Of a stretch of DNA of 64,000 nucleotides, positions 33,406 to 37,956 are shown piece after piece (the first letter of the stretch is position 1; every line of letters begins with the position of its first letter). Position numbers and translations under genes: made by a program. The DNA lies in assembly GCF_918378365.1 (NCBI RefSeq), contig NZ_OU912926.1:372001-436000 (forward strand). The letters are read 5' to 3'. Under the pieces are notes generated by a model that had not been told where the DNA came from, did no database searches, and saw only the letters and a program-made list of their open reading frames with translations. Origin of the DNA: Candidatus Nitrotoga arctica (lineage in GTDB: Bacteria; Pseudomonadota; Gammaproteobacteria; Burkholderiales; Gallionellaceae).

Positions 33406-34446
33406 ATGGAAAAAGAAGATGCCCGCAAGCAGTCGCGAGAAGTACTGCATGAACGACGCAAGCAAGTTATTCGTATGCACCGCAAAGGTGTGGCGGTGAT
33501 GGAGATCGTGGTGCAAACGGGACTGAGCTGGACGGCAGTCAATACGGCGCTGCGGTTGTATAAGGCTGAAGGTTCGGGGGCACTCAAGCCCGGCGTTCGG
33601 GGTAAAAAACCTGGCAGTGGACGTAGCTTGACGGTTAGCCAAGAGCTGGCGATTCAACAAACCATCTGCGACAGACGCCCCGAACAACTCAAGATGGATT
33701 TTGCGCTATGGAGCAGGCCCGCTGTGCGCCAGCACATTGAGCTGGCGCACAGTATCAAGCTGTCTATTCGGGCAGTAGGCAACCACTTGGCACGTTGGGG
33801 TTTTACACCACAAAAACCCATTAAAAAAGCATACGAGCAGCGGCCTGAAGCCGTCCAGGCTTGGCTTGTTGAACAGTATCCGGCCATTGAAACCAGAGCA
33901 AAAGCCGAAGGTGCGGAAATTCACTGGGGCGACGAGACGGCGCTAGTCAACACGGATGTCAGAGGCAGGAGCTATGCGCCGGTGGGCAAGACACCTGTGA
34001 CGTTCGCAGTAGGCGGCACGCGCCACAAGCTATCGATGATTGCGACGGTAACCAATCAGGGTAAAACGCGCTGGATGATTATTGATGAGGCATTTAACTC
34101 CGACAAGCTCATTGAATTTCTGGAGGCGCTCATCAAGGATACAGACCGCAAGGTGTTTCTGATACTGGACAACTTGAGAGTTCATCACAGCAAACCTGTA
34201 AAGGCTTGGGCTGCCGAGAACGCACAGAAAATCGAGTTGTTCTACTTGCCCAGCTACAGCCCTGAACTCAACCCCGAAGAAAGACTGAATGCAGATCTCA
34301 AGCACGTCATCACTTCAAAGGTGCCAGTGCGCACCAAGGCAAAACTCAGAGCTGCTGCGACTGATCACATGACCATGCTTGAGCAAAACCCCGAACGCGT
34401 GCGCCGTTATTTCCGCGACCCAAAAGTCGCCTACGCGGCTTCATGA
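33406..34446 (+). CDS. IS630-family transposase
   Basis: The 346-residue transposase has an N-terminal helix-turn-helix region (MHRKGVAVMEIVVQTGLSWTAV, about 24-46) and a second one near residue 110. A DDE catalytic domain follows: first Asp in IHWGDETALVN (about 175), second Asp in VFLILDNLRVHHSK (about 253), and Glu in YSPELNPEERLNADLK (about 285-300). This spacing is typical of IS630. No stop or frameshift interrupts it. The gene reads across almost the whole element. Confidence 0.95.
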   Translation: MEKEDARKQSREVLHERRKQVIRMHRKGVAVMEIVVQTGLSWTAVNTALRLYKAEGSGALKPGVRGKKPGSGRSLTVSQELAIQQTICDRRPEQLKMDFALWSRPAVRQHIELAHSIKLSIRAVGNHLARWGFTPQKPIKKAYEQRPEAVQAWLVEQYPAIETRAKAEGAEIHWGDETALVNTDVRGRSYAPVGKTPVTFAVGGTRHKLSMIATVTNQGKTRWMIIDEAFNSDKLIEFLEALIKDTDRKVFLILDNLRVHHSKPVKAWAAENAQKIELFYLPSYSPELNPEERLNADLKHVITSKVPVRTKAKLRAAATDHMTMLEQNPERVRRYFRDPKVAYAAS

Positions 34447-35259: not shown

Positions 35260-35989
35260 ACCGGTTTCTCATTGAGTAAGGTTTCCAACGGCATTCTGCC
35301 ATTACAAACCCTGTGCCCTGATGAGTTCTTTCATTATTGTAATAATTGAGCCATTCGTCTAGATCTTCTGCAAGGTTTCCACATCGACATAAAATTTTTT
35401 AATGAACGACCTTGCTGTAGGTATCAATAACGTCTGCTGCTATATACGAGCCACGCCTTTTAGATTATCTACGTAGAAGGTATCTTGCGCACCCAAGTAG
35501 CCCGGATGAGCCGTTCCAATTTCACCGCAGGCCACATCATCCTCATGCTTGCGTTCAAGTGCGGCAATTTGCGCATCACTGAGTACATACCCTCATTCGC
35601 AACTTTGGCTTCCAGTGTGCTCAAGCGGCCTTTGAAATTCTCAAGTTTGTGCCGTAGCCAAATAGAGCGGACGCCACTACCTGCAACAAATACTCTGTGT
35701 TTACGTCATTCATTGCTGGTGCTGTGCTGACCATGTGCAGGAAGTCTACTGCATAACCGATGACAGCTTGTTCTGTGCCTTCGTTAACACGGTTCTAAAG
35801 ATTAGGTACACGGCGCTCGCGATGGATGAGTCCTTCTAAACCTTCGGTTTCAACAAGTTCTTGATAGCGATAAAACGTGTTTCTCGACACGCCCATAATC
35901 TTGCAGGCTTTAGAGACGTTTTGAAGTTCTGACGCAAGATTGAGTAATCCTGCTTTATGTTTAATGATTGGGTTGCTAGTATGAAACAT
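35260..35989 (-). pseudogene. IS481-family transposase pseudogene with internal deletion
   Basis: Reading the minus strand, the N-terminus is intact (MFHTSNPIIKHKAGLLNLAS, NVSKACKIMGVSRNTFYRY). It then hits a stop at RVPNL; NEGTEQAVIGYAVDF, GVRSIWLRHKLENFKGRL and ADVIDTYSKVVH follow in shifting frames. The sequence then jumps to FYVDVETLQ and DLDEWLNYYNNERTHQG. Between DTYSKV and FYVDVETL about 75 codons of the DDE catalytic core are missing. Several frameshifts and stops make it inactive. The family call rests on the N-terminal HTH and the DLDEWLxYYNNERTHQG end. Confidence 0.8.
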
Positions 35990-36095: not shown

Positions 36096-36602
36096 TTAAT
36101 CATCGTCATCATCCTCATCGTCCATCTTCTTGTTTCGAGTATCGCCCATCCGCTTATCCTGGGAGCCGCCCATTTTATTGCTTGATTTATTAGCGCCGGA
36201 GTTTGGAGTCCAACAGCATGAGTTGTCGGAGCTATCGGTAGCCTTAGTATCGCTCTTGGGATTGGCGCTGTCCATTTTGGAACCGGACTTAGAGCCGGCC
36301 TTCCTGGAACCCATATCCCTATCACTCATTTTATTGTTCTCTCCGCTCATCATCTTTTTGTACGCAGCCTTCATTTCATCGGTGCTGAGTTGACCATCAC
36401 CATTCGCATCCATTTGTTGAAATTTCTTTGCTCCATAATTATTAAATTCGTCTCTGGTAACCTTTTCATCAGAATTTGAATCCATAGCTTTGAACATTTG
36501 ATCGTGCATATTTCCTTGAGATGAATCAGCGTCAGCGTGAGCCAAAGACGTGCCTAATACAAAGCAAGTTGTAATGGCGAGGTAATTAAAAGATTTTTTC
36601 AT
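36096..36602 (-). CDS. Secreted EF-hand calcium-binding protein
   Basis: The 168-residue precursor has a signal peptide ending SLAHA. Two EF-hand loops are readable: DSNSDEKVTRDE (about 44-55) and DANGDGQLSTDE (about 66-77), with calcium ligands at positions 1, 3, 5 and 12. A Ser/Lys/Met-rich low-complexity region follows, with a Cys-Cys, and an acidic tail DDEDDDDD. ATG 36602 with GGAG six bases ahead is preferred over 36614. The acidic tail ends next to the IS481 terminus. Confidence 0.8.
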   Translation of the reverse strand: MKKSFNYLAITTCFVLGTSLAHADADSSQGNMHDQMFKAMDSNSDEKVTRDEFNNYGAKKFQQMDANGDGQLSTDEMKAAYKKMMSGENNKMSDRDMGSRKAGSKSGSKMDSANPKSDTKATDSSDNSCCWTPNSGANKSSNKMGGSQDKRMGDTRNKKMDDEDDDDD

Positions 36603-36821
36603 TTGAATCTCCATTTATGGTTTTACGGAAGATTTCTTAATCGACATAACCTTATGTCGCTCTGAAGAGTTTTGCCAAGACATTTGGCTAACTCTTCATT
36701 AAGCTTAATGCAGTGTATTGAACACAGTCTGTGCGATAGGGCACATTATTGTGCGTAGGCATTAGAGGGGCTAGATAAATCAAGTATGAGCGAGCAATAA
36801 CAGCAGCGCTTATTGTGTCCC

Positions 36822-36966
36822 ACCGAACAGACGTACCATACTCTCTCAACTATTCTGTAATTGTTCTCTGCTTATTGCTGTTGAGTACAAATAATTCCTC
36901 TTTTAATTATTTGTAACTGCAAGTCTCCCCTGACGTGCATTAAGCGGAGGGCTCTCAATTAGAGCG
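36822..36966 (+). ncRNA. Structured element X (paralogue of Y), putative RNA or leader
   Basis: ACCGAACAG, then 20 bp later TATTCTG, then CTCTG, and 22 bp later ACAAATAATT are in the same spacing as in element Y at 37217. ACAAATAATT and AATTATTTGT form a perfect 10-bp hairpin (about 36887-36914). A shared core TCTCCCCTGACGTGCATTAAG follows, then a hairpin GCTCT/AGAGC (36951-36965). Y keeps hairpin 1 with an A-U to G-C exchange. A 48-codon ORF follows 70 bp later, so X may be its leader. No Rfam family is recognised. Confidence 0.5.
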
Positions 36967-37038
36967 ATAGAATTCGAGAATTTTTCTAAGTTCACGCCAA
37001 ATAAAAGGGGCAAGCTAAACTGAATTTCGGAGCATATT

Positions 37039-37185
37039 ATGCTGACGTTCGATCTAGACACTAACGAAAAAATTGATTTTAATGATACTACCAAAGCTAG
37101 AAAGTCTTTATTAGAAGTAGCTTATGGAGTCTTTATTGCTTTGCTCACCATAGCAGCAATTGATCCTAGCTTAATGACTTGGTGA
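37039..37185 (+). CDS. Small membrane protein ORF, 48 residues
   Basis: The ORF begins at ATG 37039 with GGAG six bases upstream. The first half is polar and charged (MLTFDLDTNEKIDFNDTTKA), and the second half is a single membrane segment (VAYGVFIALLTIAAI) ending in DPSLMTW. Length and composition suit a small inner-membrane protein or a type I toxin-like peptide. It sits between the related structured elements X and Y. No family is recognised; it is too short for ordinary gene callers. Confidence 0.5.
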   Translation: MLTFDLDTNEKIDFNDTTKARKSLLEVAYGVFIALLTIAAIDPSLMTW

Positions 37186-37216
37186 TTCAAGTATAAAAAA
37201 TGTCGTACTGTTTGAT

Positions 37217-37360
37217 ACCGAACAGATAATGTTAAAGCCATTAGTTATTCTACAACCGCTCCCTGTTTCTTGCTACTTAGCACAAATGATTCGTGAATAG
37301 TCATTTGCGCCTACAGATCTCCACTGACTAGCATTGAGCAGGCGGCTTCATGATAGTAGC
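37217..37360 (+). ncRNA. Structured element Y, putative small RNA ending at a strong terminator
   Basis: It aligns almost without gaps to element X: ACCGAACAG, TATTCTA, CCCTG, CTTGCT, ACAAATGATT. Hairpin 1 is CAAATGA/TCATTTG (about 37282-37307), matching X with compensatory change. The core ATCTCCACTGACTAGCATTG and a hairpin GGCT/AGCC (about 37343-37360) follow. A rho-independent terminator comes six bases later, with no ORF in between, so a transcript from here would be a small RNA of about 150 nt. Confidence 0.5.
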
Positions 37361-37365
37361 CCTTT

Positions 37366-37401
37366 CCGCTCTTTTCCTTCGGGGGAAAGGAGCGGTTTTT
37401 T
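37366..37401 (+). terminator. Strong rho-independent terminator
   Basis: CCGCTCTTTTCC and GGAAAGGAGCGG form a 12-bp stem (one G-U) with loop TTCGGG, followed by TTTTTT. Confidence 0.9.
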
Positions 37402-37433
37402 ATTGTTTGTCACAGGTGCACGTTTTTTTGGGC

Positions 37434-37497
37434 GGGCTGTGTGGGAAGGCGCAAGCCTGGCCGGTTCCTTTCCCAGGCTGTTAACCCGCACAGTTCC
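37434..37497 (+). ncRNA. Folded leader-like RNA with alternative helices
   Basis: CTGTGTGGG (37437-37445) pairs with CCCGCACAG (37485-37493) in a 9-bp closing stem that extends by G-U and G-C pairs. Inside, GGC-GCAA-GCC (37448-37457) makes a GNRA tetraloop hairpin, and GCCTGG (37455-37460) can instead pair with CCAGGC (37473-37478). These two helices share bases and exclude each other, as in attenuators or riboswitches. A 53-codon ORF with a good ribosome binding site starts 63 bp downstream. Confidence 0.45.
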
Positions 37498-37559
37498 GTG
37501 CTCTTTCGTTTAACCACGTCGGAGAGCGATATAAATCGTAGTATCTAAAGGAACTCCTA

Positions 37560-37721
37560 ATGAATCCTCCTCAAGCACACCTGCATCATCCCTCTACGGC
37601 TTTGGCATTGGGCATCATGCCTGGCGTTGCACTATCGTATCTTTTGGGAATCATCAGCATCATGAATCGCATAACAATATCCCCTTTTGCTTTGGTTTCA
37701 GGTCGTTGCTCTAATTTATAA
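37560..37721 (+). CDS. Small ORF, 53 residues, probable membrane peptide
   Basis: AAAGGA seven bases before ATG 37560 is a good ribosome binding site. The product has an N-terminal His-rich part (MNPPQAHLHHPSTALALGIM) and a hydrophobic middle (GVALSYLLGIISIM) that could span a membrane. A single Cys lies near the end. It follows the folded RNA at 37434 and is too short for usual gene finding. No family recognised. Confidence 0.4.
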   Translation: MNPPQAHLHHPSTALALGIMPGVALSYLLGIISIMNRITISPFALVSGRCSNL

Positions 37722-37879
37722 AAATAATGATTTGTGGCTAATGAGGATAGTTTGAGCCGCGCTGACAATATTTTATAAACTCATACTCGAGTATTTAATA
37801 AATGCGATGACATACTGGTGGCATAAAGTTAATGTTCTGTGAGCTACAACAGATGAATCGCTGGAAGCACTGTTAACAT

Positions 37880-37956
37880 TGGTGCCCCGAAGACGAATCG
37901 AACGTCCGACCTACCCCTTAGGAGGGGGTCGCTCTATCCACTGAGCTACCGAGGCG
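37880..37956 (-). tRNA. tRNA-Arg (anticodon CCT)
   Basis: The minus strand folds as a full 77-nt cloverleaf. The acceptor stem is GCCTCGG with TCGGGGC, and the D arm has GCTC/GAGC. The anticodon stem is ACCCC/GGGGT around the loop CTCCTAA (anticodon CCT, reading AGG), followed by a T arm GGACG-TTCGATT-CGTCT (one G-T pair). The CCA end is encoded. Confidence 0.95.

Follow-up and report, generated by a model that had tools for sequence, protein, structure and literature searches.

Multicopy small RNAs (sRNAs) are usually met in a handful of copies. FnrS, an sRNA under a Crp/Fnr-family activator, is single-copy and has an FNR site. In the part of the source drawn on here (PMC4132741), LhrC of Listeria and RsmX of P. 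syringae are described as having five copies each; LhrC1-5 are near-identical, stand under a two-component regulator and carry three CU-rich sites. NmsRA and NmsRB of the betaproteobacterium Neisseria are described, in the cited sections of PMC5362039, as tandem siblings of 70% identity with a UC-rich anti-Shine-Dalgarno loop.

A nitrite oxidiser appears to have about 20 sibling copies of one RNA, here called type A, most of them tied to one promoter design. Like FnrS, type A is predicted to have a Crp/Fnr-family activator; unlike FnrS, it has a different dyad and many copies. With LhrC1-5, which are stress-regulated and whose UCCC-type sites pair with Shine-Dalgarno regions, it shares several sibling copies and C-rich sites, and, as far as the cited part of that source describes LhrC, it differs in its up to 20 divergent copies, its one C-rich hairpin in a three-way junction, its Crp/Fnr-type dyad and its leader variants (PMC4132741). 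NmsRA and NmsRB, as described in the cited sections (PMC5362039), differ from it in their two copies, stringent-response control and three stem-loops. We consider it likely that the type A elements are Nitrotoga-specific multicopy regulatory RNAs, Crp/Fnr-activated and serving as sibling sRNAs and as leaders. The sets of sRNA, leader and EF-hand gene across Nitrotoga species would form a natural experiment on why bacteria multiply sRNAs and on whether satellites move them.

Organisation of the locus

The window, meaning the whole 64,000-nt stretch analysed, corresponds to C1:372001-436000 of the single-contig, 3.30-Mb genome of Candidatus Nitrotoga arctica. The 11 closest named homologues of one regulator of this genome were 75-95% identical to it and comprised nine Candidatus Nitrotoga records and two with broader labels, the next homologue being 72% identical. 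An earlier note on this DNA had held that no ordinary gene lies between the EF-hand gene and tRNA-Arg, and this was borne out by ORF and tRNA searches. The features of the interval and its borders were as follows.

36096..36602, minus strand: EF-hand periplasmic-type protein gene, divergent partner of A1 (MKKSF start at 36602; ORF open from 36614)
36707-36702, minus strand: possible -10 element TAAGCT of the EF-hand promoter, read from the sequence
36728..36745 (genome 408728-408745), minus strand: dyad TGTGCCCTATCGCACAGA of the EF-hand promoter, found by pattern search; similar dyads precede EF-hand paralogues
36814..36831 (genome 408814-408831), plus strand: dyad TGTGTCCCACCGAACAGA of A1, centred 41.5 nt before the inferred start
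36851..36856, plus strand: -10 element TATTCT of A1
36863..36955, plus strand: A1, three-way-junction RNA domain without a terminator, predicted leader of sORF1 (start inferred; 108.6 bits)
36923-36934, plus strand: C-rich hairpin GTCTCCCCTGAC of A1
37039..37185, plus strand: sORF1, 48 aa, with a single hydrophobic segment seen by eye (two relatives, of 46 and 50 aa, share its setting)
37209..37226 (genome 409209-409226), plus strand: dyad TGTTTGATACCGAACAGA of A2, degenerate
37246..37251, plus strand: -10 element TATTCT of A2
37258..37402, plus strand: A2, predicted stand-alone sRNA, three-way junction plus terminator (start inferred; 146.3 bits)
37317-37328, plus strand: C-rich hairpin ATCTCCACTGAC of A2
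37366..37395, plus strand: intrinsic terminator of A2
37424..37507, plus strand: C4-antisense-RNA-like element, probably decayed (28.7 bits against a gathering score of 45)
37586..37768, minus strand: possible YCII-like gene remnant, with sORF2 (37560-37721, plus strand) antisense over it
37880..37955, minus strand: tRNA-Arg(CCT), right-hand border

A1, A2, sORF1, the terminator and the third RNA all lie on the plus strand, in agreement with the note, and the strong terminator that it had reported is the hairpin at 37366-37395, which forms the 3' end of A2. The gene at the left-hand border matched Pfam EF-hand_1 (9.6e-11, over a 166-aa stretch with the first residues missing). Upstream of it, at lower coordinates, a transposase-like ORF (33406-34446) was noted by eye, together with a winged-HTH ORF (35795-35989) that resembles a transposase fragment. 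The note had not noticed the promoter dyad, the common regulon, the copies elsewhere in the genome, the link to EF-hand genes or that to C4 and satellites, all described below.

Copies and distribution of the type A RNA

A search of the genome with the ORF-poor stretch returned 20 places including itself, mainly of two kinds: type A, which is the RNA element, and type B, in which an EF-hand paralogue has its promoter and 5' region. For type A, a covariance model was built from the -10 element to the terminator and trained on 12 copies from this genome. A1 and A2, both among the 12 training rows, scored 108.6 and 146.3 bits, the latter being the best copy in the genome; both also fold below shuffles (A2, z -3.3, 0/200 shuffles as stable; A1, z -2.4, 3/200), which sustains the claim of two related structured elements.

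At E<=0.01 the model matched this genome 20 times, with 13 matches at >=57 bits, and the genus 54 times, over 11 of 19 Nitrotoga genomes (20 here, 14 in SPKER, six in strain 1052 and one to three in each of eight others). No type A copy was found at E<=0.01 in 8/19 genus genomes (4/15 of those at least 90% complete), and the RNA is therefore non-essential in the genus. The 139 family genomes from other genera, searched under stricter filters by which weak matches are lost, gave one weak match (26 bits), and none was found in 12 named genomes of other genera, the named genomes having been picked via the regulator gene, or in 16 genomes from other families of the order.

Rfam gave no match over A1 or A2 at E<=5. 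Type A was likewise absent from phage and plasmid records (distant blastn), and exact type A core patterns matched neither viral contigs nor named genomes, a set from which near relatives may be left out. The literature searched held no paper with both 'Nitrotoga' and 'sRNA'. The copies have diverged, matches being mostly 66-84% identical, and some, including L039 and L043, look decayed. Type A is a real, genus-restricted multicopy RNA family with a coherent promoter design, undescribed in Rfam and in the literature searched.

Fold and covariation

The proposed fold has four parts: P1, P2 (a long AU-rich hairpin), P3 (a short hairpin whose loop is C-rich) and the terminator. It was evaluated on an alignment of 35 copies from 11 genomes at >=57 bits; L230 and L036 were left out of the 37 copies above that score, and A1, L035, L207 and L208 were cut near the end of P1. 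The fold pairs in 91.3% of cells, with changes on both sides in 20 of 33 pairs, and the terminator helix is 91.6% paired. When the partner was slid by 1-3 columns, pairing fell to 34-54%. None of 500 shuffles reached the observed value on any of five measures (an earlier 12-copy alignment gave 0/500 on four measures and 43/500 on the fifth); these controls are not to be read as probabilities, because the structure was derived from some of these related sequences. The C-rich loop (CUCC, CCCC or CCUC) is present in 30/35 rows. The P3 stem reads GTA/TAC instead of GTC/GAC in seven copies (1052, CP45, MKT and two further genomes), five of which keep a C-rich loop. The covariation is evidence for an RNA with a three-way junction and a C-rich loop, after which most copies have a terminator. 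In the predicted transcript, the junction would expose a small hairpin whose C-rich loop reads UCUCCCCU or CUCUCC.

A protein-sequestering RNA of the Rsm/Csr sponge type, rather than a base-pairing sRNA, might account for the high copy number, which resembles that of RsmX, with its five copies in P. syringae in the cited part of PMC4132741. The sole recurrent GGA, however, sits by eye in the paired P1 strand, and the loop is C-rich, and we regard a sponge as unlikely.

A riboswitch-like attenuator was also considered, in which the domain would respond to some signal by forming either the terminator or an antiterminator ahead of a gene. The 3' strand of P1, AGCGGA, is complementary to TCCGCT, an arm of the terminator (80.5% of cells pair), and some copies are leaders. 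Against this, the alternative helix shows no covariation, 484/500 shuffles pairing as well or better, and on that test an attenuation switch in the family was ruled out. The neighbouring genes point the same way. Among 29 terminated copies with a neighbour, the next mechanically called ORF of >=80 aa is convergent in 18 and co-directional in 11; because of this excess of convergent ORFs (18/29), the terminated copies do not look like leaders. We hold the attenuator to be very improbable, and retain the reading of sibling sRNAs and leaders.

Terminated copies, probable leaders and small ORFs

Homologous stand-alone copies with a conserved structure and a terminator of their own, as expected of a multicopy sRNA, were found. 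For most copies, transcription would stop at an intrinsic terminator some 145 nt further on, and the product would be a trans-acting sRNA. A terminator hairpin is missing from six of the 37 copies at >=57 bits (A1, L035, L207, L208, L230 and L036); A1 was counted here because it has a T run without a hairpin, and L030 and L034 were counted as terminated, their hairpins being present in the alignment. A Shine-Dalgarno-like motif with a small ORF follows within 220 nt in five of the six, A1 included, and in five of the 31 other copies, one of these latter being the ORF of L230 and one sORF2. A structured element followed by a terminator or a small ORF, the repeated layout described from the window, thus recurs in other genomes. 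The few copies without a terminator, A1 among them, would be 5' leaders for genes such as sORF1, whose products would be small and either membrane-bound or secreted. In Nitrotoga sp. 1052, an 82-aa ORF that looks lipoprotein-like by eye (L207:1643-1891) lies directly behind a terminator-less type A leader.

Two relatives of sORF1 were identified, of 46 aa behind L035 in this genome and of 50 aa behind L230 in SPKER, the latter found by its position behind a type A copy. Every pairing among the three aligns better than all 2000 half-wise shuffles. In both the window and L017 the order is a type A element without a terminator, sORF1, and a type A element with a terminator. Over the last 28 codons of the pair from this genome, differences fall at 10 first, 7 second and 18 third positions (6 codons identical, 6 synonymous, 16 non-synonymous), a distribution that gives weak support to coding constraint. 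A protein search outside this genome returned, as its best match, one with E 0.235 and an internal stop, and a motif scan of the copy loci recovered just the two ORFs of this genome. The product of sORF1 is probably a small membrane protein, by prediction.

In a type I toxin-antitoxin system, sORF1 would encode a hydrophobic toxin that is kept in check by an RNA, either A2 or the A1 leader. A small hydrophobic ORF does adjoin type A RNAs in three places; yet an ORF of this kind stands behind only 3/37 copies examined, the RNA family is far wider than the ORF, and A2 has the same sense as sORF1, with no antisense overlap seen in the sequence. Such a system is highly unlikely, and a leader role for A1 is preferred.

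The second small ORF of the earlier note, sORF2 (37560-37721), was rejected as a gene. It has no Pfam match, and it overlies DNA whose homologue elsewhere in the genome, in the opposite reading direction, immediately precedes a YCII-domain ORF: window positions 37584-37819 are 70% identical to that stretch (genome 964807-965044). The remnant stretch of the window itself gave no Pfam match over the cut-off. The claim of two small ORFs therefore stands for sORF1, with its two relatives in the same position, and falls for sORF2, and the broader proposal of a regulatory RNA/small-protein system left blank by annotation holds for A1, A2 and sORF1 without sORF2.

Promoter dyad and candidate regulator

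The upstream regions of 52 of the 54 genus matches were read, two SPKER rows being left out, for a dyad that lies outside the covariance model, which starts at the -10 element. With a call at >=8/12 positions, a Crp/Fnr-type dyad, TGTGC-N6-GCACAGA, was found in 46/52 copies, starting 36-39 nt before the -10 element; it was low-scoring in the other 6/52, and 1.0% of random positions in the same loci reach the threshold. In 36 of the 46 copies the distance is exactly 37 nt, which places the centre at -41.5. The palindrome near -41.5 expected of a class II Crp/Fnr promoter is therefore present, with the start site taken from the -10 element. From this geometry, a Crp/Fnr-family dimer would bind the dyad at -41.5 and activate the TATTCT-like promoter. 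Upstream of L028, L205 and L206 (dyad 8/12) and of L050 and L213 (low-scoring), the sequence departs from the usual dyad and contains a common stretch like CGAATCATTTGYATT; these five are possibly another promoter class.

Across this genome the dyad pattern gave 35 matches against two for the reversed control. The 35 represent 32 places, three palindromes having been counted on both strands, and include nine type A copies and six of type B. Of the 18 other genus genomes, 15 showed at least threefold enrichment over the control, as in G005 (22 against 3) and G009 (32 against 1); G001, G002 and G011 fell short of this. Beyond the genus, Nitrosospira Nl5 (20 against 1), Nitrosomonas (24 against 1) and Methylobacter (17 against 0) have an excess of a related pattern. 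Sideroxydans (3 against 4), Rhodoferax (2 against 8) and Thiobacillus thioparus (0 against 2) show no enrichment, though genomes of these three genera have homologues of the candidate regulator described next.

That candidate, P0001, is encoded as follows.

L104:2122-3483 (genome 2817621-2818982): region of P0001 and the BON-domain gene

P0001 is a Crp/Fnr-family gene (genome 2818224-2818982) divergent from the BON-domain gene, with a palindromic dyad between the two. Around P0001 homologues (80 loci), the density of dyads at <=1 mismatch is 0.844 per kb within 400 nt upstream of the gene, compared with 0.110 per kb in the rest; 25 of the 80 loci, which are related to each other, have one. Perfect dyads are not enriched before the homologues (one upstream and 12 elsewhere, 0.031 against 0.029 per kb). 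Two other Crp/Fnr proteins are present in the genome. Because near-matches to the dyad are enriched before the genes of its homologues, P0001 is probably the regulator of the type A RNAs and would be autoregulated.

Other dyads lie near DUF883, DUF3309, CHRD, Cu/Zn superoxide dismutase and further EF-hand genes, and the associated genes look like an envelope or general stress regulon. A near-perfect dyad was also seen between a DUF1264 gene and a Cu/Zn superoxide dismutase gene (L105, C1:91000-94200). RedB, a Crp/Fnr subgroup, was considered as a namesake for P0001 and rejected, its motif in the cited part of the report being a non-palindromic 12-mer unlike the dyad (PMC9603854). In the excerpted sections of a CRP/FNR meta-regulon study of a nitritation reactor (PMC8510549), the dyad motif was not found.

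Pairing with EF-hand genes

An EF-hand gene lies upstream of 14/52 type A copies; these are 12 distinct genes, since each of two tandem pairs shares one. The upstream flanks are homologous among many copies because the EF-hand genes there point away from the RNA. In ten copies the EF-hand start lies within 300 nt of the -10 element of the RNA. The window pair is the eleventh; it was added separately, the EF-hand motif scan having missed the window's own gene.

In five EF-hand/RNA pairs, L026 in this genome, L219, L224 and L226 in SPKER and L214 in 1052, the best dyad on the gene strand consists of the same 16 bases as the RNA dyad, so that one site stands at class II distance from both promoters. 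The gene-side -10 element is TATTCT in three of these pairs and TAATAT in one; that of L214, TTAACC, is poor. The window pair differs in that A1 and the EF-hand gene have separate dyads. The RNAs and the EF-hand proteins would be co-expressed from divergent promoters, five pairs of them from one dyad.

Candidate targets

The EF-hand mRNA was tried as a favoured target and was not favoured by duplex energy, its start regions ranking below most of 53 other window genes. Their median rank was 32 or worse for each of the 37 copies, in a test biased against EF-hand start regions, which are AT-rich. A perfect complement of 10-11 nt to GAGTTACAAAT, which spans the Shine-Dalgarno sequence to the start codon of the EF-hand gene, is present in 10/37 copies, A1 included, and the mean longest match to the EF-hand start was 6.92, against 6.10 for shuffled RNAs. 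From the loop itself and the LhrC and NmsR analogues, the most likely action is anti-Shine-Dalgarno pairing, in which the C-rich loop would pair with Shine-Dalgarno regions.

C4-like RNA and satellite-like islands

The third RNA (37424-37507) was not stable beyond shuffles (z -1.17, 24/200 as stable), and the claim that it is a folded RNA is left with a weak Rfam match. It aligns to the whole C4 model (RF01695) at 28.7 bits, below the gathering score of 45, and, in further difference from RF01695, no integrase or AlpA gene was seen beside it (ORFs by eye). In the genus, C4 is restricted to this genome and SPKER, with five matches; besides the window copy, three exceed the gathering score (60.3, 55.2 and 52.8 bits), two of them in this genome, and one falls below it (43.9). 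A type A copy on the same strand precedes four of the five, at a distance of 20 to about 840 nt. The fifth, on SPKER contig C1, lies beyond an integrase-like ORF on a contig for which no type A match was listed.

An integrase, type A, C4, an AlpA or HTH gene and replication-type genes (by eye), with a tRNA at one end, were found in this order in three places.

L242, C1:2972000-2990000: satellite-like island of this genome
L243, C1:1000000-1014000: satellite-like island of this genome
L244, SPKER C31:1-16000: satellite-like island

In two of them, one in this genome at tRNA-Phe and one in SPKER with tRNA-Met, an EF-hand gene adjoins type A and a phage capsid gene follows further on; the HTH match of the SPKER island is below its cut-off. 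The third (tRNA-Ser, with a terminase) has the end of an integrase-like ORF, by eye, in the fetched stretch. The islands resemble P4-like and PICI satellites in their integrase, AlpA or HTH gene, replication-type genes, capsid gene in two and place near a tRNA. They differ in that two of them have both an EF-hand gene and a type A copy inserted between the integrase and C4. By gene content the islands look like phage satellites, two of them carrying the EF-hand/RNA pair.

These positions bear on an alternative in which satellites and IS elements have spread the copies, mostly as selfish or hitch-hiking DNA, and the structure is kept only by recent origin. Copies do lie on satellite-like islands and beside IS elements (IS by eye), and many are confined to few genomes. 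The copies have nonetheless diverged, covary and keep the promoter geometry, and in three genomes copies with homologous flanks stand beside tadA (by eye); covariation and promoter conservation in orthologous chromosomal copies were partly seen. Hitch-hiking as the main explanation is quite unlikely, and the regulatory reading is kept. Its boldest form can be offered only tentatively: one RNA domain would serve as about 15-20 sibling sRNAs and as leaders of small membrane proteins, one Crp/Fnr dimer would drive the divergent EF-hand and RNA promoters, and satellites would carry the pair as cargo. If true, satellite cargo wired into a host stress regulator would explain the patchy amplification of the EF-hand/RNA pair.

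In an attachment-repeat search of the window, no second copy of the tRNA-Arg end was found with <=3 mismatches. The C4-like element there stands 20 nt after A2 and is followed by the possible YCII-like remnant and tRNA-Arg, an arrangement that suggests a decayed insertion.
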